Source of the DNA: a bacterium D16-76 | GTDB lineage: Bacteria; Bacillota; Clostridia; Oscillospirales; Acutalibacteraceae | Length of the DNA: 64,000 nt | Assembly: GCA_009917445.1 (NCBI GenBank) | Contig: QZEE01000008.1 | Location: 1-64,000 of the forward strand | Direction: 5' to 3' | Shown: one piece after another, positions 334 through 21,926 of the stretch | Position numbering within the stretch: the first letter of the stretch is position 1 | Layout: the number at the start of each line of letters is the position of its first letter | Notes under the pieces: generated by a model | What the model was told of the DNA's origin: nothing | The model's database searches: none | What the model saw: only the letters and a program-made list of their open reading frames with translations | Made by a program: the position numbers and the translations under genes

Positions 334-371
334 AAAGGAGGAGCCTGCCCGGGTGGGCAAACTCCTTTTTT
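334..371 (+). terminator. Hairpin with T-run
   Basis: AAAGGAG (334-340) pairs with CTCCTTT (362-368), with an inner TGCCC/GGGCA pair, followed by T residues on the plus strand. No plus-strand gene ending here is visible, so its client is unknown. On the minus strand the same hairpin would sit in the leader of the gene starting at 266. Confidence 0.35.
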
Positions 372-1641
372 GGGGATAGTGTGGAAGCGGGTGTTAGCGG
401 CCCTTTTCAGCTTTTTTGATATTTTCGGACAACTTCATAGTGAATGTAATGGCAAAACCTTTAAGCGCACAGATAACCGCTGGGGCGGCACAGTATGGTA
501 CATGGACGAAAAGGGAGAGCGCAAGCGCAAATCTTTCTCTGGTACGACAAAGGTTGAAGTCACGAAAAAGATGACCGACTACATTGCGGCTTTCAACGAT
601 GCCCTGCAGGAGTCAGATGAATCCCACAAGACCTTGAAAGAGAGCGTGACCCACTGGCTCCATGTTTTCAAGTTCCCCTCGGTGGAACGCACAACCTACG
701 ACCGTTGCGAATGTACGGTAGAGCATCAGATTTTTCCTCTGATCGGTGAGAAAGTAGTCGGTGACATCACCGCCGCTGACCTCAAGGAAGTGCTGAATTA
801 TTGGATGAACCAGGGCTACGCTTACACTACAGTCAAGAAAGTATACATCGTCCTCAACGAATACTTCCGCTACCTGACCCAGCAGGAAATCCTTGCCAAG
901 AACCCCATGAACAGTGTCCCCATGATAAAGAAGTCAAACTTCATGGCGGCACAAAACAAAGAGGATCTACCTACGCAGGAAATGGTTACGGTGTTCACGC
1001 CAGAGGAAATAGAAAAATTCAAGGCCGAGGCGTTCAGTAAATTCAGCAACGGCAAGCCGAAATACCAGCAACCAGCGGCCTATATCCTTATGCTGAACAC
1101 CGGCCTGCGCACCGGGGAACTGCTGGGTTTGCTCAACAGCGACATCGACCTGGAGTATAAATTCCTGGAGGTGCGCCAAGGAGTAAAAGAAGTTTGCAAG
1201 CGTGACGGTGTGAATTTTGAGCCAGGCAGAGAGGTCAAAGTCGGCAAAACCAAAACGGCCACCAGCAAGCGCCGTGTGCCCCTGAATCAGGCCGCAGTGC
1301 AGGCGATAGAGGAACTACGCCAGGAACGCAACTTCGGCCCCGCAGCGCCCCTCGTGAGCGACGAGAAGGGCGACTACACCCGCCCAGTGAACTTCCGCAA
1401 ACGGTACTACCGGATTCTCAAGGCCGCCGGCATAGAACAGAAGGGCCTGCACGCTTTTCGTCACACGTTCGGAAGTGCCTTGGTAAACGGGATAAAACAG
1501 CCCGATGGCACCATCAAGGCTCTCTCACCTCGCCAAGTAGCTGACCTCTTGGGCCACAGTACCTCACAAATCACCGAGCTATACTATGTCAAGAAAGATA
1601 CCACCCGCCTGCAAGGGATAACAGACGGGTTCAACTTTTGA
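370..1641 (+). CDS. Tyrosine recombinase/integrase 1, chimeric 5' end
   Basis: Phage-type tyrosine integrase closely related to the copies at 12293 and 20428. Similarity to them begins only at NGKTFKRTDNRWGG (about base 449). The first nine or so native residues and the native ribosome binding site are replaced by unrelated sequence, and the open frame starts at a TTG with no clear binding site. The catalytic set is present: R in GLRTG, K in KTKTATSK, HxxR in HAFRHTF, H in LGHSTS, Y in ELYYVKK. The HAFRHTFGSALVNG patch differs from HSLRHHFATQLING of the other copies, suggesting mosaic origin. It lies just left of an att core at 1828. It may be inactive for lack of a proper start. Confidence 0.8.
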   Translation: MGIVWKRVLAALFSFFDIFGQLHSECNGKTFKRTDNRWGGTVWYMDEKGERKRKSFSGTTKVEVTKKMTDYIAAFNDALQESDESHKTLKESVTHWLHVFKFPSVERTTYDRCECTVEHQIFPLIGEKVVGDITAADLKEVLNYWMNQGYAYTTVKKVYIVLNEYFRYLTQQEILAKNPMNSVPMIKKSNFMAAQNKEDLPTQEMVTVFTPEEIEKFKAEAFSKFSNGKPKYQQPAAYILMLNTGLRTGELLGLLNSDIDLEYKFLEVRQGVKEVCKRDGVNFEPGREVKVGKTKTATSKRRVPLNQAAVQAIEELRQERNFGPAAPLVSDEKGDYTRPVNFRKRYYRILKAAGIEQKGLHAFRHTFGSALVNGIKQPDGTIKALSPRQVADLLGHSTSQITELYYVKKDTTRLQGITDGFNF

Positions 1642-1642
1642 T

Positions 1643-1658
1643 TGATGCGTTTTTGATG
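1643..1658 (+). repeat. Arm-type repeat, degenerate copy
   Basis: TGATGCGTTTTTGATG, a degenerate copy of the 16-mer TGATGATTTATTGATG found beyond integrases 2-4 and at the other end of the elements. It may be an integrase arm-binding site; this is inference from position. Confidence 0.4.
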
Positions 1659-1797
1659 CTGTACCAGACGGAATTTTTACGAACGGATACGACCAGATAC
1701 GAAACCCCCGATGCTCTGGTGATGATATGGCAGAAGGGGAAGAAACTGTCAGCCCTCACAGCACCCAAACATATGCCAGAATATAGCCAAAAAACAA

Positions 1798-1825
1798 GCG
1801 CCGTAGACACCCACGTCTACGGCGC
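1798..1825 (-). terminator. Element-end hairpin, former tRNA-side terminator
   Basis: GCGCCGTAGAC (1798-1808) and GTCTACGGCGC (1815-1825) form a perfect 11-bp stem with a 6-base loop. On the minus strand it is followed by TTGTTTTTT, the layout of a Rho-independent terminator. It occupies the same place as the hairpins at 13681, 18092 and 21817, between an integrase end and an att core. Confidence 0.65.
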
Positions 1826-1827
1826 AT

Positions 1828-1872
1828 TGGCAGGGGCAGAAGGATTCGAACCCTCGGCACGCGGTTTTGGAG
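1828..1872. repeat. att core 1 (copy of tRNA-Trp 3' part)
   Basis: These 45 bases are identical to 21851-21895, the 3' portion of the intact tRNA-Trp gene including its CCA end and T arm up to the anticodon loop. After base 1872 the sequence leaves the tRNA and follows the left-end sequence that also follows att core 2 (TGGATGTGGGAAAAGCAT). It is the junction between element A (left) and element B (right). Confidence 0.9.
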
Positions 1873-1965
1873 TGGATGTGGGAAAAGCATTAACGGACAT
1901 ACAACAGCCGGTTTTCCGCGCCGTTGAGCCGTTTGTGTTTCCAGGACACATGCCTAAAAGATTTC

Positions 1966-1981
1966 TGATGCTTTATTGATG
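1966..1981 (+). repeat. Arm-type repeat, left end of element B
   Basis: TGATGCTTTATTGATG, one base different from the 16-mer near the integrase ends. It lies about 95 bases right of the att core, as does the copy at 18264. Confidence 0.5.
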
Positions 1982-2014
1982 ATATCCAAATTTCTCCATC
2001 CAAAAGGAAAGTGA

Positions 2015-2058: not shown

Positions 2059-2086
2059 GTCAAATTGATTTATATGTGTTTGTGTT

Positions 2087-2117: not shown

Positions 2118-2134
2118 TTTCTTTTAGAGCGTGT

Positions 2135-2374: not shown

Positions 2375-2381
2375 GCGCTTG

Positions 2382-4381
2382 TCAATCCGCGCCCTTTATT
2401 TTAAAGGTAGCCACCAGGTTTTTCAGCATCTCCGCCTGGCCGGACAGCTCTTCGCTGGCTGCGGCGCTGCGCTGTGCGTTATCCGCGTTGCTGTCCACCA
2501 CGCTTGAGATCTGCTCTATGCCTTGGGCAATCTCTGCGGCGCCCTCCGCCTGGCGGCTGGTGTTTTCAGCAATACTGTCGATGAGCCCACTCATCTCGTC
2601 GGCATGGGTAACCACTGCTAACATGGACTCCGAAGTCTCCTGCGCGGCCCTGGTCCCCTCATCTATAGAGTCAACGGTTTCACCCAGCAGGACCGTTGTT
2701 TCCCGGGCAGCCTCCGCAGACCGGCTGGCAAGGGAGCGCACCTCTTCCGCTACCACGGCAAAGCCCTTGCCGGCTTCACCGGCCCTGGCTGCCTCTACCG
2801 AGGCGTTCAATGCCAGGATATTGGTCTGGAAAGAGATGTCCTCGATGGTCTTGACAATCCCGTGAATCTCACTGGATTTGTCGCTGATGCGCTGGATGAC
2901 GCCTGTCATATTCCGCATTTTATCGCTGCTGTCCAGCAGCCCCTGTTTGACCTCTCTGGTAAGCCGGCTGGCCTCCTGGGCATTTTGGGCCGTTTCCTGC
3001 ACGCTGCCGGACATGGACGTGATGTGGCCGGCCAAAGCGTCTACAGAGGCCGCCTGTTCTGCGGAACCCTGGGACAGGGCCACCGCCCCGCTGGAAACCT
3101 GCTGCGCACCTGAGGCTACCTCATGAGAAGCGGTGTTCAGCTGGCCGATGGTACCGCTTAGGCGCCGGGAAATCTCTTCCAGGGAGTCCCGGATCTTCTC
3201 AAACTCCCCCGTATAATCATGCTCAAGGGTAAAGGCCAGGTTGCCTCCCGCAATTTCCCGGAGCTTTTGGGAGATCTCGTCGATATACTGCACATATTCC
3301 CGCAGGCGCAGGGTGGTGCGGTTAAAGTTATAGGCCAGCATCCCCAGCTCGTCCTTGGACTGGTATTTTATGGACTGTTCCAGCTCGCCCTCCGCAATCC
3401 GCGCAGCCACCTGGCTCATTTCAGCCACAGGCCGTCCGATGATACGCCTGGCCAGGATTACCACCAGCAGGATCAGGACGATAACCGTAACCACCGCCAC
3501 AGACACCATCAGGGCCGTCAACTGCCCCAGCTCCGCCAGGACTTCCCCCCGGGACACATAGGCCACAGCAATCCAGTCGCTGTCTGGAACCTGGGCCACC
3601 TGTATGTAGCTGCCCTCAAACTGGGAGAGCCCGGTTTTGCCGTTGTCAATCTGCTGCGCGGTATAGGCATACATACTGTCCTGCACCTCGCTCAGCTTCT
3701 GGCCGGCCACCTCGGGGTCGCGGTGCCCGATGATCGTATCCGTGCGTTTATCCACAAGGAAAATGCCGCCGCTTTCCTCAAGCTGGACTTTGCTGACGAT
3801 TTGGGAGATGGAATCCAGGTATACATCGGCGGCCGCTACGCCGCGCACCGTGCCGTCAGCGCTTTTCAGCATGCCCGAGGCGCCAACCACATAGGACTGG
3901 CTGTCCTCGTCAAAGTACACATCGCCCAAAATAAATTTCTCCGAGGCGATGCCATCCTGATACCAACTTTTAGAGGCGGCGTCGAAATCCGGGCCGGGTA
4001 CAAAGCTGGCATGGTACAGGGAGCCGTCCGTCAAGGCAACATACAGCCCGGCGGGGTAAGCCTCGTTCTGATCCACTGTGTGCTTGATGTATGCCTCCAT
4101 CTCCGGGATGTTCATATCTTCATATTCGATGGTATCCCGCTGTGTTTCCAACATTGTAAGGGTTCTGTTCATCCACGAGCTGGTCTCTTGGATAGTCTTA
4201 CCCATAGTGGCCTGAAGCAGCTCTTCACTTTTTGTCAAGAGTGCGTCAGACACTCTTGAATAGACTACCACAAGCAGCACTGACACTGCCAGGACAACAC
4301 TAATAACGATTGCCGAAACAAGCTTAGCCGTTATCCCCTTGGCCTTGCTGACTTTTTTTTCGCAACCCGGTTTTCTTGCAT
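2382..4381 (-). CDS. Methyl-accepting chemotaxis protein with apparent N-terminal frameshift
   Basis: Transmembrane chemoreceptor: N-terminal membrane helix, an extracellular double-Cache-type sensor, a second helix ([19 protein letters not shown]), a HAMP linker, and a signalling domain with the hairpin-tip signature [20 protein letters not shown]. It would pass ligand signals to CheA/CheW. The main frame is open from 4286 but has no usable start. Just upstream an ATG (4381-4379) with an AGGAGAG site encodes [10 protein letters not shown] in another frame; one extra A in the A8 run (4353-4360) would join it to [18 protein letters not shown] and complete the first helix. So the gene as read is frameshifted: mutation, sequence error, slippage or phase variation. 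No other chemotaxis gene is near; it is element B cargo. Confidence 0.85.
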
Positions 4382-4601
4382 ACCCTTATTCTCTCCTATC
4401 TTTCCCGCAGACTGCTGGGACAAAAATCACCTTGCCATATTTCATTTTGAGTATACACTTTTTTGTGGAAAAAATCGACTGCTTTTTTGGGTACCGCGAT
4501 AAGGAAAGCGTGAGCAGCAAGCTATAGCATAAAACTGCGGCAGTGGAGAAGTTATCAAAAAAAGCAGGCAGCGCTTTTCACGCCGCCTGCTCGAAGCAAG
4601 A

Positions 4602-6107
4602 TCACTTTTGCGTTTCCCCGACGAACGCCCTGTCCCGGAAGCACACGTTCCGGTCGCTGGTGGCGCCAAAGAGCTGGAACATCCCTTTCACCCCGTCGGT
4701 GACCCACAGGAAGAGTTTCTCCCCGTCGAATTGGAATTTCCAGGTCTGGTAATGGCCGGTTTCCCGCCAGCAGACCGTGAGCAGCAGAGTGTCCTGATCC
4801 ACCCAGGTGTGGTGGGCGGAGTAGGCCCAGGCCCGGGAGCGCTGTTCCGGCCCCCGCAGGGGGCTGTTGCTGGGGATTTCAATGGCAAAGGTCGTCTCCC
4901 CGTGCCGATCCGTTACGCAGGAGCTCTCCAGAGACTGGATGCCGTCCACGGCAATGGCCAGCCGGCTGTTTGCCAGCTGCAGCCGGAGCCAGTGCTGTTC
5001 CTGACTGTCCACTGATTTTAAGAGGTATATCTTGTCCTGCAGCAAGGCCTGCAAATAGGAGGAGCTTGGCTCATACACAGCAGGGGCTTCCCATTGGCAG
5101 AGTACCTTTTGCAAATGCTCATAGGCCCAAGCGTCCCGCCCCTTTTGGGGATCTGTCAAGTTCGCAAGCAGGTATTGTTCCACCAGAGGGAAGACCCGGG
5201 TGCCATCGATTTCTTCCGCTGTGGTGACGATGACCATGTCCTTTTGTGGAAACACCATAATATACTGACCAAAAGCGCCGTCTGCCCGGTAGCTGCCGGG
5301 GCTGTTTTCCCAGATTTGATAGCCGTACCGCTGGCCCCAGCCGGCGCAGCCCTGTCCCAGGGTGGGGACGTGGGGAGCGGCGGCCTCATCAATCCACTCC
5401 TCCGAAAGGAGCCGCTGGCCATTCCATAGGCCCTTGTTCAGGTAGAGCGCGCCCAACTTGCACAGATCCCTGGGGGCGATAAGCAATCCCCAGGCGCCGG
5501 TGTTTACTTTGCCGTTGACGTCCCAGCTCACGTCGGTGATTCCCAGGGGTTCAAAGAGCTTCTCCTGCAGCCACTGAAACAGGCTCTTACCCGTTGCCCG
5601 GCTGATGACCTCCGAGAGCATATAGGTGCCGCCGGAGTTGTACACAAAATGTTCCCCCGGCGCGTAGGCCATTTTCCGGGTGAAGAAGATTTCCGGCCAA
5701 GGGATGCCCTCGCTGTTGCACATATCCCCTACGGTGTCCCGTTCATGGCCGGTACTCATGGTCAGCACGTCCCGCAGGGTGATCTCCCTTGCTCGGGGGT
5801 CCATGTCTAGGTCTTTGCATTCCGGGAAATGGTCCAGCAGCTTATCGTTCACATTCACAAGACCCTCCTGCACGGCGAATCCAATGGCTGTGGAGGTGAA
5901 GGTCTTGCTCACCGAGTACACCAGCCGCTTATCGCTGGCCCGGAAGGGATAGCGGGCGGCCTCCACCACGGCTTTCCCGTGGCGGATGATGTGGAGCGTG
6001 CGCAGCTTGTAGTGGGTCTTGTCGCACTCCTGCAGGAAGTTCGCGACGGCGATAGAGGAAATGCCCGCGTCCTCCGGTAAGTAGAAACGGTCGAATAGGT
6101 CTGCCAT
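4602..6107 (-). CDS. Beta-lactamase-fold serine hydrolase
   Basis: 501-residue member of the beta-lactamase/penicillin-binding (class C-like) hydrolase family. S65-V-S-K68 is the nucleophile and general base motif and Y156-N-S the second motif. About 340 residues form the catalytic domain; the remaining C-terminal part is beta-rich in appearance and may be a lipocalin-like extension. No signal peptide, so probably cytoplasmic. Members act on peptides, esters or D-amino-acid compounds; the substrate here is unknown. It starts one base after the transporter stop codon (6109), so the two are co-transcribed, and hydrolysis of the imported compound is a reasonable inference. Confidence 0.8.
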   Translation of the reverse strand: MADLFDRFYLPEDAGISSIAVANFLQECDKTHYKLRTLHIIRHGKAVVEAARYPFRASDKRLVYSVSKTFTSTAIGFAVQEGLVNVNDKLLDHFPECKDLDMDPRAREITLRDVLTMSTGHERDTVGDMCNSEGIPWPEIFFTRKMAYAPGEHFVYNSGGTYMLSEVISRATGKSLFQWLQEKLFEPLGITDVSWDVNGKVNTGAWGLLIAPRDLCKLGALYLNKGLWNGQRLLSEEWIDEAAAPHVPTLGQGCAGWGQRYGYQIWENSPGSYRADGAFGQYIMVFPQKDMVIVTTAEEIDGTRVFPLVEQYLLANLTDPQKGRDAWAYEHLQKVLCQWEAPAVYEPSSSYLQALLQDKIYLLKSVDSQEQHWLRLQLANSRLAIAVDGIQSLESSCVTDRHGETTFAIEIPSNSPLRGPEQRSRAWAYSAHHTWVDQDTLLLTVCWRETGHYQTWKFQFDGEKLFLWVTDGVKGMFQLFGATSDRNVCFRDRAFVGETQK

Positions 6108-6108
6108 G

Positions 6109-7491
6109 TTATTGCACCCCTTCCTTTTTCATGTTGGCCACCTCTTTGTCGGCATCCATCCGGCTGCTGAACAGCACCAGCAAAATACTGCACACCAGGG
6201 GGATTACGGCGTAGCCCACAGTCTCCATCACCAGGGTGAAGGAGGACTGGGCCAGGCCTGCGCTGGCCGCTTCGCCGCTGTAGCCGCCAATGGCCAGCAC
6301 AGCCGCCACGCCCACGCTGCCCAGGAGCATCCCAAACCGCATACCGAATTGGGCGATGCTGGTGGAAAGGCCGGAGAGGTCGGTTTTGTTTTTCAAGTTG
6401 ATGTAGTCAGCCACATCGGCGGTAGCGGTGCCCAGCAGTACGCCAAAGAAAGCGCTGCCAATGCCGTACACCGCATTGCCGATCATGACGAAGGCCAAGT
6501 TGGGAACGATCATCAAGGCGTAGCCCACCACCTGGAATAAGGAACCCAGCACAAGCACCTTTCGCTTTCCCAGCTTGGCATTAGCAATGGGTACAATGCC
6601 AAGCAGGCAGCAGAGGATACCAGGCACCAGCTTTGCATAGCTAATCTGGGTCATGTAGCCGGCATTGCCCAGCACGTCCCGCAGGAAGTAGATGGCCATA
6701 GAGCCGAAAATCATCCCGGCAAAGTTGTAAGTGAGGAACATACCAAACAGAGGGAGGGCGTATTTGCAGCCAAAGACATACTTCAGCTGGGTTTTGACGG
6801 GCAGGGAGGGGCGCTTCTGGGCCGCGCTGAGCTGCTGGGCGGCGTCGGCCCACACCTCCGGGGTCTCCCGGCAGATAACGCCGGTGAGGAAGGGCAGGAT
6901 AAAGCCAATGGAGCAGAAAATCAGGCTCAGACCGAAGTAGCCTTTTTCATAGCCGCCAAAATACATAAGCACCGGCACACCGTAGGCACTAACGATCAAG
7001 TTGGAGATCTGTCCCAAAAGGCTGCCCAAGTTAGTGACCTTTGCCCGTTCCACAGAGTTGGAAGTCATCTTGATGAGCAGGGTTGCGGTGGCGATACTGA
7101 TAACGGCACCGAAAACAGCTACATGGAGCAGGTAGTTTACAAACACCCAGATCATCCGCCCGGTGGGGCTGAAGCTGGTAGGGGTGTTGAAGATCAGGAA
7201 CACGGGCAGGGCCACAAAAAAAGCGGTGCCCAGGATCCAGGGACGGGCCTTACCCATCTTGGTGTGAGTCATGTCAATGAGGAAACCGCTCAGGCCTTCT
7301 GTAACGGCGTTGATGATCCGGGCGGCGGTCATCATGGCGGTGATGAAGCCCATGGAAAGCAGCAGGTTGTCCGTCAGATAGACGGTGAGGAAGCTGCCCA
7401 AAATGCCGGCAATGCAGCTGGAACCGCAGCCGTTAAGGGCAAAGCCGATCATTTGGGACACAGGGAGCTTGTCTTGTTTCTTTTCTGTCAT
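6109..7491 (-). CDS. GPH-family (MFS_2) sugar/glycoside:cation symporter
   Basis: About 460 residues with twelve predicted membrane helices. The segment ARIINAVTEGLSGFLIDMTH and the following KMGKARPW match the conserved first cytoplasmic loop of the glycoside-pentoside-hexuronide transporters (D-x-x-x-G-x-x-x-D and G-K-x-R-P). The start ATG at 7491 follows GGAGGG; an in-frame start 21 bases upstream lacks a good site. It lies between an AraC regulator and a serine hydrolase on the same strand. The substrate cannot be read from sequence; sugars or glycosides are typical. Confidence 0.8.
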   Translation of the reverse strand: MTEKKQDKLPVSQMIGFALNGCGSSCIAGILGSFLTVYLTDNLLLSMGFITAMMTAARIINAVTEGLSGFLIDMTHTKMGKARPWILGTAFFVALPVFLIFNTPTSFSPTGRMIWVFVNYLLHVAVFGAVISIATATLLIKMTSNSVERAKVTNLGSLLGQISNLIVSAYGVPVLMYFGGYEKGYFGLSLIFCSIGFILPFLTGVICRETPEVWADAAQQLSAAQKRPSLPVKTQLKYVFGCKYALPLFGMFLTYNFAGMIFGSMAIYFLRDVLGNAGYMTQISYAKLVPGILCCLLGIVPIANAKLGKRKVLVLGSLFQVVGYALMIVPNLAFVMIGNAVYGIGSAFFGVLLGTATADVADYINLKNKTDLSGLSTSIAQFGMRFGMLLGSVGVAAVLAIGGYSGEAASAGLAQSSFTLVMETVGYAVIPLVCSILLVLFSSRMDADKEVANMKKEGVQ

Positions 7492-7622
7492 TTTTTCAAC
7501 CCTCCAAGTCAAAGGAATGTGGCAGGCGGTGCGCGCACTCCGCTTGCGGCTATACTGTTAGAATACCATGGGGAGAGTTGAGAAAATATGGTGGAATTGA
7601 CTGCTCTTTAGGGAAAAACTGA

Positions 7623-8486
7623 CTAATCTTGCCGGAAAAAAGGGTTTTGAGTAATCTCTTTTCGATAATTTCTGGGGGTGCGGCCATAGTATTTCCGGAA
7701 ATACTGGATAAAGCTGCCTTCATCGGCAAAGCCCGTTTCCAGGGCGATTTCCGAGATTTTTTTGGATGTCTGAGCGAGCAGCTGCTCTGCCTGAAGAACC
7801 CGGTATTTGGCTAGGTATTGGGAGAAAGTGGCTCCCGTATACTTTTTGAAAAAGCGGCAGAAATACTCTTTCGAGAAGAAAAACTGCTGCGCCATCTGGG
7901 CGGTGTGCAGGGGCTCGCTGTAATGGTCATGAATGTAAGCCAGGATCCCCTCCAGCTTTCGGAAGGGCTCCTGAGAGGTGCTGTCTTTGGCCCGGTCCCA
8001 CTCCTGGCAGCACTGGGTGAGCAGGACATAGACAATCTCGCAAATCTGCCGGATGACAAGCACTGACAGGAAGGGAGTGCCCTCCTGCTCATACCACTCG
8101 TTAAGCGCAAGGATCAGGGATTGAATTTTCGTATTAGCCTCCTCTGTGAGGACGAAATAGCATGTATCGAAATTGGGGATCAGGCTTTTTAAGAAGGAGT
8201 AGCTGATTTGCAGCGTGATGCCGGTGATGGCAAAGCCGTCTGTGGCGAAATAGGGGATGGAGGAGTGGACCTCCCGGCTATTGACCAGCACAATGTGCTG
8301 AGGTGTCACATCTTCCACCCGGCCGTTGATAAAAAAACGCGAGGAGCCTTCAAAAGCTGTATTGATCTCCAATTCCGGATGCCAATGGCTTTTGACAATT
8401 TTGCTTCCCGGCCTGGTGTGCCGGATGATGAAGCCCGGGACAGTCCCGTGTATCTCCACTTTTTCAAAAATGCCGTGGTCGGGCAT
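7623..8486 (-). CDS. AraC-family transcriptional regulator
   Basis: 287 residues from the ATG at 8486, which follows AAGGAG; the longer upstream open frame lacks support. The N-terminal half is a cupin-like sensor (HWHPELEINTAFEG), the C-terminal 100 residues hold two helix-turn-helix motifs of the AraC/XylS type (MAQQFFFSKEYFCRFFKKYTG and ISEIALETGFADEGSFIQYFRK). It precedes the transporter and hydrolase genes by 131 bases on the same strand and most likely controls them in response to their substrate. Confidence 0.88.
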   Translation of the reverse strand: MPDHGIFEKVEIHGTVPGFIIRHTRPGSKIVKSHWHPELEINTAFEGSSRFFINGRVEDVTPQHIVLVNSREVHSSIPYFATDGFAITGITLQISYSFLKSLIPNFDTCYFVLTEEANTKIQSLILALNEWYEQEGTPFLSVLVIRQICEIVYVLLTQCCQEWDRAKDSTSQEPFRKLEGILAYIHDHYSEPLHTAQMAQQFFFSKEYFCRFFKKYTGATFSQYLAKYRVLQAEQLLAQTSKKISEIALETGFADEGSFIQYFRKYYGRTPRNYRKEITQNPFFRQD

Positions 8487-8577
8487 GGGAATCAGCTCCT
8501 TCCTGTGTTTGTTAATTATACCGGAATCCGTCGAATGATGCAAGATGCTGCAGAGAGTTTTTGACAAGCCAGCATAG

Positions 8578-8638
8578 GGGAGAGATGAAAAATATCGGCG
8601 CACAGTGAACAGGGTAGGCCAGGAGATTGAAGAATTAG
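8578..8638 (+). pseudogene. DUF6809-like gene, 5' piece before the IS
   Basis: An open stretch (GRDEKYRRTVNRVGQEIEEL) that continues in frame with 9830-9997 when the insertion sequence and one TTAG copy are removed. A TAG at 8575 blocks it upstream, so the original start is already lost. See the 3' piece. Confidence 0.6.
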
Positions 8639-10320: not shown

Positions 10321-10349
10321 TGCGCCGCCTAAAACAAAGAAAAGCCAGC

Positions 10350-11393: not shown

Positions 11394-11528
11394 AGTATCT
11401 CCTGTTACCGATATGAAATCGACATTTACCCATCATAGCCGTCAGCTATTGAAAAAGGCGAGAAGCCCTGCTAGACTATTGTAACAGACAAAGGGGAATC
11501 TGTCAAATAGAATTAGGAGGTGCATTTG

Positions 11529-11894: not shown

Positions 11895-12292
11895 GGGCCA
11901 TTCTGGACGGGTAAGAGAGACACTAGGGGGAACACAAACTGAAGGAATCAGGGCATCCCGTAGGCGATTTTAGATGAAGTTACCGGGCAAAACCTATTTT
12001 TTATTTAGAACAGAAATCCTCCGGTTAGCAGAGTGGTGGGGCAGAAGAAAATCCTCCCGTTTCGGGAGGGCAAGCATAGCGTCCGGCTATACGCCGTCCG
12101 CATGAGCCGGGAAGACCCGGCTCTCCCCCTGCCCCTAAAGGGGAGTTGTAAGGGCTTCGATGAGCACTCAAAATTTGCGCCGCATAAACAAAGAAAGAGG
12201 TTTTTCAGCGGGCAGAAAAGTAAGAAAAATGTCAGTGGACTTTCGGAACGAGGTGTGGTATGTTGTGTTGTTGACGAAAGGAGGGCTGACAG
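11895..12292 (+). promoter_or_regulatory. Conserved leader of integrase 2
   Basis: No gene seen. The stretch matches 20060-20427 before integrase 4: a CCTCCC/GGGAGG hairpin (12051-12069), a GC-rich palindromic segment, the ATTTGCGC repeat, then GTAAGAAAAATGTCAGTGGA and a candidate promoter TGGACT (12236-12241), 17 bases, TATGTT (12259-12264). AAAGGAGG at 12277-12284 sets the integrase start at 12293. The shared structure suggests a regulated leader or recombination-related DNA. Confidence 0.5.
12168..12199 (+). repeat. Element repeat TTTGCGCYGC-A-rich, copy 2
   Basis: AAATTTGCGCCGC followed by ATAAACAAAGAAAGAG; about 95 bases before the integrase 2 start. Same family as 2087, 18411 and 20291. 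Confidence 0.55.
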
Positions 12293-13548: not shown

Positions 13549-13564
13549 TGATGATTTATTGATG
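13549..13564 (+). repeat. Arm-type repeat beyond integrase 2
   Basis: TGATGATTTATTGATG, identical to the copies at 17960, 18264 and 21675. Confidence 0.55.
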
Positions 13565-13680: not shown

Positions 13681-13706
13681 TCCCGGAATTCCAAGGAATT
13701 TCGGGA
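13681..13706 (-). terminator. Element-end hairpin beyond integrase 2
   Basis: TCCCGGAATTCC pairs with GGAATTTCGGGA around two bases, with one G-T pair, and a T-run (TTTTC) follows on the minus strand. Same element-end hairpin as at 18092 and 21817. Six bases further right the expected att core is absent and unrelated sequence begins. Confidence 0.6.
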
Positions 13707-13828
13707 TTTATCTGTGTGAGGTGGATACAAAAAAGATATCTTTGACTAGCTGGTAGATGTATCTGAACTCTTGCAATATGAACCAGCATTAAAAAATTTG
13801 TAGCATTGAAAAGAAAAAGGTAGAAATC

Positions 13829-13856: not shown

Positions 13857-14055
13857 AAGGGCGTACTTCGCAACCTTTCCCAAAAAGAAGTTACGTATGA
13901 AAGTGCAGAAATAATCTAAAACAACCTTTGCAGCCTTGCCGAAATGTAGAAACATGTGAAAATTACGACTCATTCCTGTCTTCATACGGAGGGCGATTTG
14001 TTAAGTGTATGGGCTTTGAGATGTTTCCCAAAAATTGCTATGGAGGAGAAAATTT

Positions 14056-16854
14056 ATGATGAATTCACTTATTGACTTAGTTAAGCAGTTACTTTCATTT
14101 TCCTGGATTAATGATATCAATATGATAATAGACACTTTAACTCCTGCAACAAAAATTGTTAGTACTTTGGTGCTCATACTACTTGCACTTAGTAAAAAGA
14201 TATATAAGTTCCTTTGCTGGAGTTTCAGAAAAAAGCCTGCAGATTCACTTTATCAAGCTTTATCCACATATTCTATTGCTTCTTGGGCTGAAGTAATCTA
14301 TCAGATAAAATGTTATAGACCTCTTAGATTTACCAGAGATGGAAAAAGTATAAGACAAATTATAAGAAGAATCTTAAAGTGTTCAGGGAATAAGCAAACT
14401 TCTACTTCCAATATTTTTATAGTTGGAGATGCAGCTTGTGGCAAAACTACTACTATGCGATATTTGTACTGCAAATTATACGGCAAACGGCAATGTGTAT
14501 ATTTTCAAATGCAAAGCATCACGTGTATGGAGGATTTAAATCAATGTCTGAAGAGGCAAAAAATAAGAAATGATTTATCTAGTAAAGATCCTGTTGTGGC
14601 ATTTTTTGATGGGTTGGATGAAGCCTGTGCTTTTTTTCAGAGCGTAAATGCTAATTCAATTGAAGAAGCCTTTATTTCACTTTTTGGTCATGGGAAAAAG
14701 ACTAAGGTTCACGAACTATTCCTTCAGTATGACTTAGATCTGGTTTGTTCAATAGCTGCTTTGCGACCTGAATTTCTAGAACATTCAATCAATAGTCTGA
14801 ACGATACCAAAAATAAGAATTGTTATACATATGTGTATGAAATTTGCCCTTTGAGAAATAGAGATGCTATCCGTATTTTTAAATCCTTAAATGTGTTAAA
14901 AAGGCTGGATTCAAAACTTGAGAAGAAAGAGCGCCGACACCAGGAAAGGTGTCCTTCAATATTTATTCGGTGGAGATATGTTTACCTATTTCGAAAGATT
15001 TTGAAAGATAATCCTAAAGGATTATTTCATTACCCAATGTATATTAGGTATGCATATTCTTTTTTGCGTGAATATCTTAGGAAAAAGAAAAAGGGCGAAA
15101 AACTCTATATTAACGATGATTTTCTGTTTTCTTTTAAAATTTTGTTAGATGCCATTGTGAAATGGGAATTCCATGTATATTATGATAAAAGCAGTGCTAT
15201 AAACGACGGTGAAAATGACAGCTTTGAATCAGCATATGACTGGGAGAAAATGATGAAACCCTTAAAATGCTGTGCACAGGAAATTGCCGTTGAAGTTTCA
15301 AAACAAGCCAATCGCTCGTTATCAAGGGGTAAAGTCAAAGAGATTATACAAAAAAAGTTTCCCGAAAAAGAAGCGTTAGCTGTAGCACATGTTTTTATGA
15401 ATTCATCTGAGGATGGCGCTTCATTTTCTTTTTGTCATAATGTCTTTTACGAATATTTTTTTGCTGAATACTTATTTGAAAAAGGAACTTATGATATAAG
15501 AAAACAATTTTTAAGTGAGAAAGATAAGATTGAAATTAATGTTAGAAAAATGTATTACTATTTGCTTTGCCAGGAAAAAATCCAAGAAAGAGATAGTAAG
15601 TCTGTTAGTGAAAAAATTTCTGCAAGTCTATATATAGAGGGAATAAAGGTTTTATCTCCTAATAACTATCTGGAGTTAGAAAATCAAACTCAGCTAGAGG
15701 TAAGGGAGTATCCTGAGTTAACAATAGTGGAGATTTTCGAGTATTTACCTTGGATTAGTAATTTCAAATATCATGGTTACTTTCTTTCGCGAGAATATTT
15801 AGAAAATGCAATGAGCCTCGGACATGTAAACATGATGAGGACAAAATGGGAACTTCTAGAATATGCTTTCGGAATTATTTCAAGAGAAAGAATTATTGAA
15901 CTCAAAATATCAGATTTAGCCATAAAGGATCTAAATAATCTGAAAGAATTTACAAACCTGAAAAGATTGTATGCATGTTACAATAATGAGAAATCAGAAA
16001 GCATAATAAGCATTTTAGATGAACTTGAATGCTTTGAAATGGATTGGATTGTAATCCGTTCGATAACCGGTTTATTATGTGAAGAAATCTATAATCGCAT
16101 TTCAAGAGGAAAGCTTCATCTCGATAAAATATACGTGGAGACGCCTGATTACAGTCAATCACATTTGAAAATGTGGCAATTGAATCAATTAATGCACAAT
16201 TCGGAAATTGATTCTCGTTTTTGCCTTTTGTGTCGCTCTGATTCAGATATCGCTAAAGACCTCTTTCTTAAGCAGAAACTAGATTATAGTCTTCTATTAG
16301 CTGTTTTTGAGTTAGAAACAGATGAAAATGGAATTCTTGGATTGACCTCGAAAAATTCTGAAGCTACCATTTGGAATGCTTTAAATTTAGCTAGATGTTC
16401 TCAGATTCAAAATGGAAACGATGACCACGCATATCAAGTATTGAAGCTAATTTCGAAACATATTGAGCTACATAAGCCAGTGTGTTCGGAGTGCGTCTTT
16501 ATAAGATTTGGACTTGCGTATGGAAAAATACTGTTACATTATGCAGAGTATTCCACTGCAAAGATGTGGCTTCTTAACTCGTATGAACTCGGTGCTAACT
16601 GTATGACCTGTGTGTCTTTGGAAGATCGTGTCGGATATGGATTAGATATTTATGAGGCATGGATATACTCTGGAGAAACTGGAATAGATTGCTTTGAAAG
16701 AGAATTGGAGGATAAGATGAAGATGTTAGATAGTGGTGATGAGACAGACGCCCTTTACTTTCGGTTTTTTGAGTTGAAAAAGCATATGCATATACATGAA
16801 GTTAACGATATGGATCCTAAAAAGTATGAAAAGTCATATATGGACGAAGGTTGA
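14056..16854 (+). CDS. Membrane-anchored NACHT/STAND NTPase, candidate defence protein
   Basis: 932 residues from the ATG 7 bases after GGAGGAG. Order: a short N-terminal segment, one hydrophobic helix (about residues 32-47, IVSTLVLILLAL), a NACHT-type NTPase with Walker A GDAACGKT (124-131) and Walker B VVAFFDGLDEA (180-190), a sensor-like AALRPEF, a GLFHYPMYIRYAYSFL helix, and the winged-helix-type motif FCHNVFYEYFFAEYL (about 459-473). The remaining 450 residues include leucine-rich-like stretches (NLKEFTNLKRLYACYNN) and helical repeats, a likely sensor. Such NLR-like proteins act in antiphage defence by ligand-triggered oligomerisation. Codon use is strongly AT-rich, unlike all neighbours, and it is the only gene in its sub-element. 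Target and effector action are unknown. Confidence 0.8.
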   Translation: MMNSLIDLVKQLLSFSWINDINMIIDTLTPATKIVSTLVLILLALSKKIYKFLCWSFRKKPADSLYQALSTYSIASWAEVIYQIKCYRPLRFTRDGKSIRQIIRRILKCSGNKQTSTSNIFIVGDAACGKTTTMRYLYCKLYGKRQCVYFQMQSITCMEDLNQCLKRQKIRNDLSSKDPVVAFFDGLDEACAFFQSVNANSIEEAFISLFGHGKKTKVHELFLQYDLDLVCSIAALRPEFLEHSINSLNDTKNKNCYTYVYEICPLRNRDAIRIFKSLNVLKRLDSKLEKKERRHQERCPSIFIRWRYVYLFRKILKDNPKGLFHYPMYIRYAYSFLREYLRKKKKGEKLYINDDFLFSFKILLDAIVKWEFHVYYDKSSAINDGENDSFESAYDWEKMMKPLKCCAQEIAVEVSKQANRSLSRGKVKEIIQKKFPEKEALAVAHVFMNSSEDGASFSFCHNVFYEYFFAEYLFEKGTYDIRKQFLSEKDKIEINVRKMYYYLLCQEKIQERDSKSVSEKISASLYIEGIKVLSPNNYLELENQTQLEVREYPELTIVEIFEYLPWISNFKYHGYFLSREYLENAMSLGHVNMMRTKWELLEYAFGIISRERIIELKISDLAIKDLNNLKEFTNLKRLYACYNNEKSESIISILDELECFEMDWIVIRSITGLLCEEIYNRISRGKLHLDKIYVETPDYSQSHLKMWQLNQLMHNSEIDSRFCLLCRSDSDIAKDLFLKQKLDYSLLLAVFELETDENGILGLTSKNSEATIWNALNLARCSQIQNGNDDHAYQVLKLISKHIELHKPVCSECVFIRFGLAYGKILLHYAEYSTAKMWLLNSYELGANCMTCVSLEDRVGYGLDIYEAWIYSGETGIDCFERELEDKMKMLDSGDETDALYFRFFELKKHMHIHEVNDMDPKKYEKSYMDEG

Positions 16855-17124: not shown

Positions 17125-17126
17125 TA

Positions 17127-17920
17127 TCGTCCTCAACGAGTATTTTCGCTACCTGACCCAGCAGGAAATTCTGGTCAAAAATCCCATGAATAGCGTACCC
17201 ATGATAAAAAAGTCAAATTTCATGGCGGCACAGAACAAAGAAGACTTGCCTACGCAGGAAACGGTTACAGTTTTCACATCAGAGGAAATAGAGAAATTCA
17301 AGGCCGAAGCATTCAGCAAGTTTTCAAACGGCAAGCCCAAGTACCAGCAGCCGGCGGCCTACATCCTCATGCTGAACACAGGGCTACGCACCGGGAAACT
17401 GCTTGGCCTCCTCAACAGCGACATCAACCTGGAGGGCAGGTACTTGGAAGTCCACCAGAACGTCAAAGAGGTGTGCAGGCGTGAGGGAACAGAGTACATC
17501 CCCGGCAGGGAGGTCAAGGTGGGCAAGACCAAAACAGCCACCAGTAAGCGCCGTGTGCCCCTGAATGGGGCCGCAGTGGCCGCGATAGAGGAGTTACGCC
17601 AGGAACGCAACTTCGGCCCCACAGCGCCCCTCGTGAGCGACGAGAAAGGCGGCTACACCAGGCCGGTGAACTTCCGAAAGAGGTACTACCGGATTTTGAA
17701 AGCAGCGGGCATAGAGCAGAAAGGATTGCACAGTTTAAGACATCATTTTGCGACCCAACTGATAAACGGCGTGAAACAGCCCGACGGCACCATCAAAGCA
17801 CTCTCGCCCCGGCAGGTGGCCGACCTCCTGGGCCACAGCGCCTCACAAATCACCGAGATGTACTACGTCAAAAAAGACACAACCCGCCTGCAAGGAATAA
17901 CAGACGGATTTAATTTTTAG
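17127..17920 (+). pseudogene. Tyrosine recombinase/integrase 3, lacking first 141 codons
   Basis: From IVLNEYFRYLTQQEIL onward it matches integrases 2 and 4, including R, K, HSLRHHF, GHSASQ and MYYVKK catalytic positions. The arm-binding domain and most of the core-binding domain are gone. An open frame extends upstream to 16796 through the end of the NACHT gene and an IS remnant, but that part has no integrase similarity and no ribosome binding site. GLRTGKLLG has K in place of the usual E. Probably inactive by itself. Confidence 0.85.
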
Positions 17921-18091: not shown

Positions 18092-18117
18092 GCCCGGAAT
18101 TCCAAGGAATTCCGGGC
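18092..18117 (-). terminator. Element-end hairpin beyond integrase 3
   Basis: GCCCGGAATTCC and GGAATTCCGGGC form a perfect 12-bp stem around AA. On the minus strand TTTTCTTGTGTTTT follows. Identical stem to 21817-21842, where it lies right behind the intact tRNA-Trp. Confidence 0.7.
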
Positions 18118-18125: not shown

Positions 18126-18170
18126 TGGCAGGGGCAGAAGGATTCGAACCCTCGGCACGCGGTTTTGGAG
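18126..18170. repeat. att core 2 (copy of tRNA-Trp 3' part)
   Basis: Identical over 45 bases to 1828-1872 and to the tRNA-Trp gene. It separates element B (left, ending with integrase 3) from mini-element C (right). The following 60 bases match those after att core 1, marking the shared left end of the element family. Confidence 0.92.
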
Positions 18171-18263
18171 TGGATGTGGGAAAAGCATGAACGGACATAC
18201 AACGGCCTGCTTTCCGCGCGGTTGTACCGTTTGTGTTTCCGAAACCCACGCCCCAAAAAGTTT

Positions 18264-18279
18264 TGATGATTTATTGATG
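18264..18279 (+). repeat. Arm-type repeat, left end of element C
   Basis: TGATGATTTATTGATG, about 95 bases right of att core 2; identical to the copies beyond integrases 2-4. Confidence 0.55.
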
Positions 18280-18410
18280 ATATTAGAAATTCTCAGACCC
18301 AAATCAGAGCAGTTTCCAACCGCTCAGCATGGCATTTTAGAGCGGCAAGAGATAATTTCGTTTGAAATAGTAGCATGGAAATCGGGGTGTGTCAAGCAGG
18401 AATTTCTCGC

Positions 18411-18497: not shown

Positions 18498-18827
18498 TTA
18501 CATTCTGTTCTCATTACCCCAATCACAAAGTTGATCCAGCACCACCATCAGCGACTTTCCTCTTTCTGTCAGACTGTACTCCACCTTGGGCGGTATCTGC
18601 GGGTAAACCTCCCGGTGGATAAGTTCGTCATGCTCCAATTCCTTTAGGTGCTGGCTCAGTGTCTTGTCAGAAACCTTGCCCAGATACCGCTGCAGCTCAT
18701 TGAAACGCACTGGCTGGTATTCCATCAGGCAGTAGAGGATTACCATCTTGTACTTGCCTGAAATCAGCGAAAGGGTATAGCTGAACCCGGTATCCTCAAA
18801 GCAGGCTGCTGAAATGCATTTTTTCAT
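18498..18827 (-). CDS. HxlR-family transcriptional regulator
   Basis: 109-residue winged-helix protein with the HxlR pattern: N-terminal cysteine (C4), LSLISGKYKMVILYCL, RFNELQRYLGKVSDKTLSQHLKEL, and the wing YPQIPPKVEYSLTERGKSL. HxlR proteins such as YodB and HypR sense quinones, aldehydes or disulfide stress through an N-terminal cysteine. It is divergent from a flavin reductase-like gene and probably represses it. The start at MKKC is chosen over one 18 bases upstream by spacing. Confidence 0.88.
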   Translation of the reverse strand: MKKCISAACFEDTGFSYTLSLISGKYKMVILYCLMEYQPVRFNELQRYLGKVSDKTLSQHLKELEHDELIHREVYPQIPPKVEYSLTERGKSLMVVLDQLCDWGNENRM

Positions 18828-18843
18828 TTTATCACTTCCCTGC

Positions 18844-18874
18844 AAGTAAGTATCTAACTATAAAGTGGGTACTT
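18844..18874. promoter_or_regulatory. Candidate HxlR operator
   Basis: In the divergent intergenic region AAGTA (18848-18852, also 18844-18848) faces TACTT (18870-18874), an imperfect inverted repeat of the type bound by HxlR-family dimers. Position between the two starts supports autoregulation and control of the reductase gene; not proven. Confidence 0.35.
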
Positions 18875-18955: not shown

Positions 18956-19528
18956 ATGAAGAAAGATCTTGGAGTAAACCCCTATCTGTTTCCTATGCCC
19001 ACGCTGATGATTGCCACCTACAACGAGGACGATACCGTAGATGACATGATGATGGCCTGGGGAGGCATCTGCGCGGGAAATATGGTAGCGCTGAACCTTG
19101 AAAAAGACCACAAGACCTGTGCAAACCTGGAAAAGCGCAAGGCTTTCACCATCAGCGTCCCGGATGTGGCGCATATCAAGGAGGCCGACTTTTTAGGAAT
19201 CGCCAGCGCCAACAAGATGCCGGACAAATTTGCGCGCAGCGGCCTACACGCCGAAAAGAGCGGAAAGGTGGACGCGCCCATCGTTACTGAGTTCCCCCTC
19301 ACCGTGGAGTGCAAGGTTGTGAGCATGGAGGAACTCGGTGGCGACTATCATGTGGTAGGCGAGATCGTAGGCGTACTGGCGGAGGAATCCGTCCTGGACG
19401 AGAAAGGCCGGGTGGATGCCTCCAAACTCAACGCCTTCGTGTTCGACCAGTTCCGCAACGGCTACTACGTCATCGGTGAAAAAGTCGGCCAGGCTTGGAA
19501 CAGCGGCGCTGGGCTGATGAAGGAGTAA
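18956..19528 (+). CDS. Flavin reductase-like FMN-binding protein
   Basis: 190 residues of the flavin-reductase-like split-barrel family: PTLMIATYNEDDTVDDMMMA at the N-terminus and a central AFTISVPDVAHIKEADFLG where FMN binds in relatives. Such proteins are cytoplasmic FMN proteins, often with redox roles under electrophile stress. The ATG follows GGAGG by 7 bases. It pairs with the divergent HxlR regulator, which suggests a small quinone/aldehyde-response cassette carried as the sole cargo of element C. Confidence 0.85.
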   Translation: MKKDLGVNPYLFPMPTLMIATYNEDDTVDDMMMAWGGICAGNMVALNLEKDHKTCANLEKRKAFTISVPDVAHIKEADFLGIASANKMPDKFARSGLHAEKSGKVDAPIVTEFPLTVECKVVSMEELGGDYHVVGEIVGVLAEESVLDEKGRVDASKLNAFVFDQFRNGYYVIGEKVGQAWNSGAGLMKE

Positions 19529-20059: not shown

Positions 20060-20427
20060 CTTAGTGCAAAATCACGATAGGGGTTGCTAATGAGGATTTG
20101 GCGTGAAATGTGGGGTTGCTATCGCGAAAAACGACAAGGTTGCGAGGAATTTCCAGGGGTTGCAAATGAAGTGCTGATGTCCTATAAAAATCCTCCCCTT
20201 TTGGGGAGGGCAAGCAGAGCGCTCGTCCGACGTTGGGCACGGTTACCGGGCAGTAGCCCGGACCCACTTTTGTAAGGGCAAGGCACCTAGCTCAGAATTT
20301 GCGTTGCAAAACAAAGAATACGGCCTTTAGAAATCTGAGAATATCAGTGCAAAGAGTAAGAAAAATGTCAGTGGACTTTCGCGGCAAGGTGTGGTATCGT
20401 GGTGTGCTGAGAAAGGAGGGCTGACAA
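20060..20427 (+). promoter_or_regulatory. Conserved leader of integrase 4
   Basis: Gene-free stretch matching the leader of integrase 2: CCTCCCC/GGGGAGG hairpin (20192-20209), GC-rich palindromes with CCGGGCAGTAGCCCGG, the ATTTGCG repeat, GTAAGAAAAATGTCAGTGGA, then TGGACT-17-TATCGT as candidate promoter and AAAGGAGG before the ATG at 20428. Hairpin sequence changes between the two leaders keep the pairing. Confidence 0.5.
20291..20320 (+). repeat. Element repeat TTTGCGCYGC-A-rich, copy 4
   Basis: CAGAATTTGCGTTGC followed by AAAACAAAGAATA, about 110 bases before integrase 4. The most diverged copy of the four. Confidence 0.5.
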
Positions 20428-21645
20428 ATGGCTCAGAAGAAGTTGTTGACTAACGGAAAAGCCTTTAAGAGAACCGATGACCGCTGGGGCGGCACCGTCT
20501 GGTACATGGACGAAAAAGGAGAGCGTAAGCGTAAATCATTCTCAGGCACTACCAAGGCTGAAGTCACCAAGAAAATGACCGATTACGTTGCGGCTTTCAA
20601 CAATGCCTTGCAGGAGTCAGATGAATCCCATAAGACTCTCCGCGAGAGCATGACCCACTGGCTCCAAGTGTTCAAGTTTCCATCGGTGGAACGTACCACC
20701 TACGACCGCTGTGAATGTACGGTAGAACACCAAATTTTTCCTCTGCTTGGAGAGAAAGTAGTAGGTGACATCAGCGCCGCAGACCTCAAAGAAGTGCTGA
20801 ACCACTGGATGAACCAGGACTACGCTTACACCACAGTCAAAAAGGTTTACATTGTCCTCAACGAATACTTCCGCTACCTGACCCAGCAGGAAATCCTGCA
20901 AAAGAACCCCATGAACAGCGTACCCATGATAAAGAAGTCAAACTTCATGGCAGCGCAGAACAAAGAAGACCTACCCACACAGGAAACTGTCACGGTATTC
21001 ACGCCAGAAGAAATTGAGAAATTCAAAGCCGAGGCATTCAGCAAATTCAGCAATGGCAAGCCCAAATACCAGCAGCCAGCGGCCTATATTCTCATGCTGA
21101 ACACCGGCCTGCGCACCGGGGAACTGCTGGGTTTGCTCAACAGCGACATCAATTTAGAGGGCAGATACTTGGAGGTACGCCAAGGGATAAAGGAAGTCTG
21201 CAAGCGAGATGGCGTGAATTTTGAGCCAGGTAGAGAAGTCAAAGTCGGCAAGACGAAAACGGCCACCAGCAAGCGACGTGTGCCGCTGAATGAGGCCGCA
21301 GCGCAGGCGGTAAGGGAGTTGCGCCAGGAGCGAGACTTCGGCCCCACAGCGCCCCTCGTGAGCGACGAGAGGGGCGACTACACCCGCCCGGTGAACTTCC
21401 GCAAGAGGTACTACCGGATTTTGAAAGCAGCGGGCATAGATCAGAAAGGATTGCACAGTTTAAGACATCATTTTGCCACTCAACTGATAAATGGTGTGAA
21501 ACAGCCCGACGGCACCATCAAGGCTCTCTCACCTCGCCAAGTAGCTGACCTCCTGGGCCACAGCACATCGCAAATCACCGAGATGTACTACGTCAAGAAA
21601 GATACGACCCGTCTGCAGGGAATCACGGACGGGTTCAATTTCTAG
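20428..21645 (+). CDS. Tyrosine recombinase/integrase 4, next to tRNA-Trp
   Basis: Complete 405-residue integrase with AP2-like arm-binding domain, core-binding domain and catalytic domain (R229, K in KTKTATSK, H343-R346, H378, Y387 or Y388). AAAGGAGG lies 8 bases before ATG. As the copy nearest the intact tRNA-Trp it belongs to the last element to arrive and is the most likely functional enzyme for excision and for mobilising its neighbours, since all att cores are identical. Confidence 0.93.
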   Translation: MAQKKLLTNGKAFKRTDDRWGGTVWYMDEKGERKRKSFSGTTKAEVTKKMTDYVAAFNNALQESDESHKTLRESMTHWLQVFKFPSVERTTYDRCECTVEHQIFPLLGEKVVGDISAADLKEVLNHWMNQDYAYTTVKKVYIVLNEYFRYLTQQEILQKNPMNSVPMIKKSNFMAAQNKEDLPTQETVTVFTPEEIEKFKAEAFSKFSNGKPKYQQPAAYILMLNTGLRTGELLGLLNSDINLEGRYLEVRQGIKEVCKRDGVNFEPGREVKVGKTKTATSKRRVPLNEAAAQAVRELRQERDFGPTAPLVSDERGDYTRPVNFRKRYYRILKAAGIDQKGLHSLRHHFATQLINGVKQPDGTIKALSPRQVADLLGHSTSQITEMYYVKKDTTRLQGITDGFNF

Positions 21646-21674
21646 CCAGAGCAAGCCAACACAGGGGAGAGCCC

Positions 21675-21690
21675 CCCAAATTTTTGATGA
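21675..21690 (+). repeat. Arm-type repeat beyond integrase 4
   Basis: TGATGATTTATTGATG, 30 bases after the integrase stop. Confidence 0.55.
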
Positions 21691-21816
21691 TTTATTGATG
21701 ATGTGCCAGACGGAAAAGTTAGAAACGGATGGCACCGGATGCGAAAAAAGAGCAAAATATACGCCATAGAGAACGGCAAAGTAGACCGCATCCAACCACC
21801 CCAAAACACGAGAAAA

Positions 21817-21842
21817 GCCCGGAATTCCAAGGAATTCCGGGC
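21817..21842 (-). terminator. Terminator of tRNA-Trp supplied by the element
   Basis: Starting 8 bases past the tRNA 3' end on the minus strand, GCCCGGAATTCC and GGAATTCCGGGC form a 12-bp stem followed by TTTTCTCGTGTTTT. It has no T-run on the plus strand, so it serves the tRNA rather than the integrase gene. It belongs to the element, because the same hairpin lies beyond integrases 2 and 3. Confidence 0.75.
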
Positions 21843-21850
21843 CAAGTCTG

Positions 21851-21926
21851 TGGCAGGGGCAGAAGGATTCGAACCCTCGGCACGCGGTTTTGGAGACCGC
21901 TGCTCTACCAGCTGAGCTATACCCCT
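21851..21926 (-). tRNA. tRNA-Trp (CCA), intact, att site
   Basis: Full cloverleaf of 76 nt with encoded CCA. Acceptor AGGGGTA pairs with TGCCCCT, discriminator G, D arm GCTCAGCTGGTAGAGC, anticodon stem GCGGT/ACCGC around CTCCAAA (anticodon CCA), T arm GAGGGTTCGAATCCTTC. Its 3' part is the crossover target of the integrative elements to the left. It encodes the tryptophan acceptor, normally essential, and each integration restores it. Confidence 0.97.

Follow-up and report, generated by a model that had tools for sequence, protein, structure and literature searches.

The first 64 kb (64,000 nucleotides) of contig C137, from the 3.78-Mb draft genome of bacterium D16-76 (Acutalibacteraceae) and hereafter called the window, hold a row of related integrative elements behind a tRNA-Trp gene. 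We consider, with good confidence, that this row grew by serial site-specific accretion of related elements derived from integrative mobilizable elements (IMEs). Such elements would have entered the tRNA-Trp gene one after another, and the window would be the tRNA-proximal part of the row; as it starts at the contig end, the leftmost element (element 1) is visible solely through its right end. The tRNA-Trp (CCA) gene is complete at 21851-21926 on the minus strand and adjoins an element end, that is, it is restored at the element border. Its last 45 bp (the core) matched the window exactly three times when up to three mismatches were allowed, and each match was perfect: copy 1 at 1828-1872 (plus strand), which is the right end of element 1 and the left end of a middle interval, copy 2 at 18126-18170 (plus strand), the right end of element 3 and the left end of element 4, and copy 3 at 21851-21895, inside the tRNA gene. 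In shuffled sequence of 64 kb, 0 copies are expected, and the three identical copies described in an earlier note on this DNA were thus confirmed. A search of the genome with window 1780-1900 returned no further full core copy, and one partial copy on contig C11.

Four tyrosine recombinase genes of a single family accompany the cores, all on the plus strand and oriented toward tRNA-Trp. The genes are int1 in the leftmost element (370-1641; homology from 445, the first ~7 residues being unlike int4), int2 (12293-13510; full length according to Pfam and the comparison with int4), int3 (17126-17920; truncated) and int4 (20428-21645; full length according to Pfam). They are the only family members in this genome; int1-int3 are 91-92% identical to int4, and the next-best match to int4 in the genome has 28% identity. 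Three Pfam integrase families (PF00589 plus the N-terminal and central families) were recognized in each of int1, int2 and int4, and PF00589 only in int3, whose homology begins at int4 residue 141. The stretches TGLRTG, GLHxxRH, LLGHS and YYVKKD are kept in all four. The four homologous integrases aimed at the tRNA that the earlier note had announced are therefore real, with the correction that int3 misses the counterpart of int4 residues 1-140. Element 4 possesses an integrase and both cores (int4, 18126 and 21851), and the right end of element 1 likewise joins an integrase to a core; the middle interval contains a full int2 without a core and the truncated int3 with one.

The ends of the elements are also conserved. 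The left end TGGATGTGG directly follows both internal cores, and extends over 1873-2005 in the middle interval (TGGATGTGGG..., plus strand, with an arm-like 16-mer at 1966-1981 carrying one mismatch) and over 18171-18303 in element 4 (plus strand, 16-mer at 18264-18279). Right-end hairpins are present in element 1 (1798-1825), element 2 (13682-13705, followed by non-element DNA and no core), element 3 (18092-18117) and element 4 (21817-21842). The first is of a second type that we also found at cores in the congeners G013, G018, G010 and G027, and the last is a stem followed by T's that scores terminator-like on the tRNA strand. The arm-like 16-mer, TGATGATTTATTGATG, has 5 matches in the window for 0.02 expected. 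Cores 1 and 2 each have one at +138, cores 2 and 3 each have one at -166 (that of core 3 at 21685-21700, plus strand, in the right end of element 4), and one lies behind int2 (13549-13564, plus strand), which predicts a missing core at 13715. On the int1 side of core 1, no 16-mer was found with up to two mismatches. Over 180 kb of a congener with a similar but longer stack (G022), 12 of 13 matches are spaced +138, -166 or -187 from a core, the remaining match being at -165. Core-type and arm-type sites at such spacing form the layout expected of a lambda-like integrase. The partial copy on contig C11 is an orphan right-end piece (G000:C11:112185-112250; L005:8186-8251), made up of a hairpin of the second type and ~20 bp from the start of the core, and has 89% identity to window 1783-1847; no integrase match on C11 was listed in the genome search with int4.

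The earlier note regarded int2 as the mark of a further element whose attachment site had been lost by deletion. A hairpin and an arm site are indeed present behind int2, and its core was probably not lost by plain deletion. At the right end of int2, the element pattern is kept into the start of the core and then breaks off, and an identical break position occurs in two congener stretches (int d of G022, L081 of G018). The DNA past the break in G022 reads by eye, on its other strand, like the C-terminal part of a recombinase. As the break recurs at the core start and recombinase-like DNA lies beyond it in G022, insertion of another transposon followed by rearrangement is our best reading of the loss of the int2 core, judged from sequence; in the window, no coding part of a recombinase-like gene is visible past the int2 hairpin. 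We also weighed whether int2 might have a second attachment specificity and rejected the idea, since in its G022 counterpart the DNA after the hairpin looks like the end of a gene for a recombinase-like protein.

From this anatomy we infer how such a row would grow. The right end of each element would bring together its tyrosine integrase, a hairpin, a copy of the last 45 bp of the tRNA and, in most cases, an arm-type site. An arriving element would supply a new 3' part of the tRNA together with a terminator, and the old 3' copy would be pushed outward to become the next core; indeed, the hairpin near the core scores like a terminator on the strand of the tRNA, so that a terminator to replace the old one appears to arrive with the element. 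Strand exchange would most likely take place in the anticodon stem-loop part of the 45 bp. The proposal of the earlier note that the leftmost element is the oldest is not shown, because internal cores with the same 45 bp could be targets too, and its suggestion that one active integrase could move single elements or the whole block is a supposition.

After merging of identical rows, the retrieved stretches gave 53 distinct cores, which are followed by a TGGATGT left end (31), by the tRNA (11) or by something else (11, namely AACG- or AGCG-type left ends in seven, variants or shifts of TGGATG in three and a contig end in one). None varies at positions 31-40, and most variants fall at positions 13-30, in the T-arm. 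In the tRNA-Trp of G018, two pairs of the T-stem differ by compensated changes, and the 5' half of this tRNA is identical to that of the window. Its 3' half was found in 4 of 200 family genomes (once with one mismatch), always in tRNA-Trp genes and always in other genera, and the gene adjoins a second-type right-end hairpin that closes a 1-kb interval without integrase. RNAfold predicted a normal cloverleaf for the G018 tRNA and none for a variant G022 core joined in silico to the tRNA 5' half. The foreign-genus 3' half and the adjoining element hairpin make it most likely that an element brought the G018 3' half, with an exchange to the right of the T-arm, and elements in general seem to bring new tRNA 3' halves. 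An attempt to locate the exchange through links between core variants and flanks failed. Among 32 internal cores, the T-arm variant went with the flank on the integrase side (a link as strong arose in 34 of 2000 shuffles) and more strongly with the other flank (2 of 2000), a result that does not support the proposed position; identical flank types occur with two or more core variants, and species relatedness probably confounds the test.

Congeners lend support to the claim that one family entered serially at one attB site. With int4 as query, 15 of 60 genomes (our own and relatives) matched at E ≤ 1e-100, all within the genus, and the best 80 of 91 relatives (76 loci) were kept. The same ends, with integrases up to 94% identical, sit at the tRNA-Trp gene of congeners with other cargo, and the block does not behave as one invariable unit, the behavior that would have refuted the earlier note: across seven stretches from six congeners, coverage was 0.19-1.0 for int4, 0-1.0 for the left end and 0-0.99 for the right end, against 0-0.08 for the cargo of the middle interval and 0-0.03 for that of element 4. 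Also, of the 14 congeners in which an integrase matched, 12 are closer to this genome in the integrase (compared with int4) than in RsmI (percent identities of 94 vs 78 in G022, 94 vs 72 in G004, 93 vs 77 in G009), a pattern that on the whole fits transfer. Counting against transfer, RsmI identity is the higher in G011 and G019, RsmI alone serves as the standard of comparison, and partial matches account for five of the integrase values. A tree was built from 26 chosen integrase rows (three partial, the most broken integrases left out), with labels counted on 15; genome labels required 7 changes against a shuffled mean of 7.3, a value as low being reached in 114 of 200 shuffles. Since the labels do not cluster, each genome looks to have taken its integrases from a pool common to the genus. 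On the other side, the tree leaves 10 of its 23 inner branches open, and its signal could be blurred by recombination between copies in tandem.

Not every relative is tied to the core, and this weighs against a single habit of the family. A core was found within 500 bp of 21 of the 69 integrase rows that include a C-terminus in named loci, and of 11 of the 19 rows with at least 80% identity. Some coreless rows are contig ends or fragments, and it is evident that many of the 60-73% relatives use other sites. Conversely, the tRNA-Trp site is shared in congeners by an unrelated tyrosine integrase, as judged from its sequence: the tRNA-proximal integrase of G027 is a different recombinase, which over 175 residues has 24% identity to int4. 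In G003 and G007, the 20-kb stretches contain tRNA-Trp and no recognizable int4 relative. A comparison with empty sites by synteny gave no true pre-insertion pair, the neighbors of tRNA-Trp being different among the congeners examined.

The most extensive stack is that of G022, on a single contig. Among the matches listed it has nine cores including the tRNA (2024708-2178963, over 154 kb) and eight integrase genes of the int4 family, of which two are truncated and one of these also frameshifted. A family integrase stands just before seven of the nine cores (two of those integrases truncated), the two remaining cores are preceded by another kind of right end, and one full-length integrase has no core. 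Two large elements of this stack (intervals ending at cores 108848 and 149982 in reverse-complement coordinates) share 14.7 kb at 96% identity, and one protein scanned in them is a coupling protein (PF02534). Window 1-1639 matches the right end of these large elements at 79-86%, and on this match element 1 probably belongs to their type.

Some neighbors in G022 are close copies of each other, sharing 14.7 kb at 96%, 5.1 kb at 91% and 1.6 kb at 98.6%, so that this stack grew in part because one element entered repeatedly or was duplicated. Such pairs, and the ease with which ~85%-alike tandem copies should recombine, would suit a single composite island, either acquired in one piece or enlarged on the spot by duplication of an integrase together with its end, with no separate site-specific entries. 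We find this origin improbable. The window integrases int1-int3 are just 91-92% identical to int4, a repeat search found no cargo genes shared within the window (just short repeats besides the integrases and ends), genome labels are unclustered on the integrase tree, the geometry of left ends, arms and cores is kept exactly, and stretches of other genomes have different cargo.

Elements 2 and 4 each contain a region that resembles an origin of transfer (oriT), a new finding relative to the earlier note, which had also missed the hybrid tRNA of G018 and the unrelated integrase at the same site. In element 4 this region (20170-20290, plus strand) ends 138 bp upstream of int4 and its first inverted repeat is short of part of one arm; in element 2 (12046-12155, plus strand) it resembles the region before NikA and a relaxase in a G022 element. 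A 121-bp query taken from before int4 gave 32 matches in 8 genomes, the query included, of which 30 were made into loci. The next gene is a family integrase in 13 loci (at 52-212 bp) and a relaxase in 11 (at 193-362 bp), with NikA 21-46 bp away in 10 of these; neither was found in 6. The two matches without a locus lie ~267 bp upstream of relaxase matches that contain a stop codon. On the relaxase side, six loci show 80-87% identity across 91-99 bp, three show 76% across 70-71 query bases and two show 88% across 33 bp, and the homologues that precede NikA genes by 21-46 bp have inverted repeats. The loci share GGCAAGCA (one has GGCAGGCA), nearly all have the second inverted repeat, and ACCCACT occurs in every locus except the element-2 subtype. 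The element 2 region itself matches, over about 110 bp at 85%, a G022 element in which oriT-like region, NikA, relaxase (PF03432, 131.9 bits) and integrase follow in this order.

On the strength of this homology to NikA- and relaxase-linked regions, elements 2 and 4 seem to descend from mobilizable elements and to have no relaxase any more: the elements of the row would derive from IMEs, those of int2 and int4 having kept the oriT-like region and no NikA or relaxase. Excision would be carried out by a family integrase; for transfer, the elements would depend on a relaxase and a conjugation apparatus that the cell produces from other loci. Contig C137 has none of the 16 relaxase (PF03432) and none of the 18 coupling-protein (PF02534) matches of the genome, mating-pair families not having been searched and element 1 being cut by the contig end. 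By their relaxase and coupling-protein content these elements do not class as integrative and conjugative elements (ICEs), and, as elements 1, 2 and 4 keep an open integrase, they do not class as cis-mobilizable elements (CIMEs) either; the int3 remnant alone, whose left att was not found, approaches a CIME. With their own integrase and att sites, the elements of int2 and int4 resemble the "iOriT" kind of IME, and would be mobilizable in trans. Contigs C61 and C63 carry relaxase genes (frames of 477 and 478 aa) that partly match in the region before NikA, and their products are candidate, unproven helpers. Several points weigh against mobilization of this kind. The element 2 region is a separate subtype that matches that of element 4 over 34 bp, of the C61 and C63 regions one matches that of element 4 over just 73 bp (76%) and the other over just 33 bp (88%), the oriT-like region of element 4 may be a relic, as part of its repeat arm is lost, and no excisionase was recognized.

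Tyrosine integrases at tRNA 3' ends are typical of prophages and phage satellites, and a stack of these at tRNA-Trp has to be considered. In G009 (C11, ~3857-66133), a 62-kb interval between two stack cores holds proteins that look phage-like by eye, and a prophage may share the site there. As an account of the whole row, however, such a stack is very improbable. At E ≤ 1e-20, int4 had no match in 50,697 phage records, and two related loci were found in viral contigs; 20 proteins scanned with Pfam contained 0 phage structural families (PHROGs not run); and a relaxase-linked region adjoins the integrase. Plasmid records gave 0 matches at the same threshold.

It is possible, though doubtful, that the array is a fossil, its cores and oriT-like regions being remnants of a CIME-like decay in which nothing moves now. 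The truncation of int3, the lost core of int2, the two truncated integrases out of eight in G022 and the damaged oriT repeat of element 4 would all be expected of it. Nevertheless, int1, int2 and int4 are open and keep the catalytic motif stretches, the window cores are identical, and the hybrid tRNA of G018, together with integrase identities of up to 94% between species, points to movement within the genus. A bolder extension of serial accretion, which we hold to be rather unlikely, is that tRNA-Trp is the mouth of an open-ended cassette array. Interchangeable family integrases and an unrelated one would share the core, any intact integrase would add or remove oriT-only cassettes singly or as blocks, relaxases encoded elsewhere would mobilize them, and each arrival would rewrite the 3' half of the tRNA. 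If true, the tRNA-Trp allele would record the last element and its former host.

The cargo is varied. Element 2 carries genes for a methyl-accepting chemotaxis protein, a beta-lactamase-fold hydrolase, a GPH-type symporter and an AraC regulator (2382-8669, minus strand); beyond these lie genes for an IS5-family transposase (8751-9752, minus strand) and an HTH_36 protein (11520-11894, plus strand) that is 66% identical to proteins of two G022 elements. The hydrolase adjoins the symporter (4602-7512), and its best NCBIfam model, 3-succinylated cholic acid synthase, scores 223.8 bits, far under the cut-off of 800. Behind int2, an AT-rich gene (14035-16854, plus strand; 31-38% GC for ~50% around it) encodes a 939-aa nucleoside triphosphatase-like protein with AAA_14 and nSTAND3 matches under the curated cut-offs; NCBIfam returned 0 families for this protein, and PADLOC 0 families for five proteins scanned, this one included. 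Element 4 carries an HxlR regulator (18498-18845, minus strand) and a flavin reductase-like protein (18956-19528, plus strand). With 10 candidates scored per genome, relatives of this pair were found in G008, G027, G016 and partly G005 (69-79% identity), and relatives of the chemoreceptor in six other genomes (72-75%). Also, a GC-rich palindromic repeat (GTCTCGCCTGYCGGCTCGGTCGG...) lies inside or beside broken tRNA-Trp 3' copies in G006 (10340-10500), G007 (10001 and 10169) and G013 (1625-1750), and elsewhere too, including window 25067 on the minus strand.

Taken with its congeners, the window offers a clean natural series for tandem accretion, with the same ends and different cargo in several species and the single-contig row of G022. 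The hybrid tRNA suggests that tRNA 3' halves move between genera, and the oriT-like region suggests a way in which cargo that lacks transfer genes could pass between gut Oscillospiraceae. The route of genome growth is a known one, unusually clear and extensive here and in related species. Tycheposons of marine cyanobacteria are likewise flanked by tRNA and combine a tyrosine recombinase with varied cargo. In the literature on Acutalibacter and mobile elements, the titles and abstract openings of the matches listed contain no description of this stack, and we do not claim its absence from print.

Tandem accretion of IMEs is a kind of event already described. One review reports accretion of ICEs, IMEs and CIMEs at tRNA genes or gene ends in streptococci and others, with integrases that are generally distantly related where the elements are functional (PMC5704250); in contrast, the window integrases are more than 90% identical, and the G022 row is long. 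The SGI1 arrays, of up to six copies of a mobilizable island (PMC5704250; PMC2297512), repeat one island, whereas relatives with different cargo are lined up here. In the Islander table, 2168 genomes give 125 tandems of at least two islands and 4 of at least three (PMC4383910). Our elements agree with its islands in having a tDNA fragment and an integrase each, and an anticodon-centered attP is one of its two classes; G022 differs in having seven cores directly preceded by a family integrase, two of these integrases being truncated. The islands at ssrA in Dehalococcoides stand in tandem behind one RNA gene, with more than a dozen direct repeats in a span of 100 kb; an integration module is present in many of the islands and absent from 15 (PMC3146451). 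The likeness lies in tandem islands downstream of a single RNA gene; there, the gene encodes a transfer-messenger RNA, the repeat is of 20 bp and the recombinase is DsiB, placed in a tree with Ccr recombinases (PMC3146451), whereas the window has a tyrosine integrase, tRNA-Trp, a 45-bp repeat and an oriT-like region. Finally, iOriT elements are defined as integrative elements with an oriT and without a relaxase (PMC11389934). The elements of int2 and int4, which combine an oriT-like region with an integrase and gave no relaxase match, would share this constitution, with the difference that oriT function is here assigned by homology only and that the candidate helpers are unproven.

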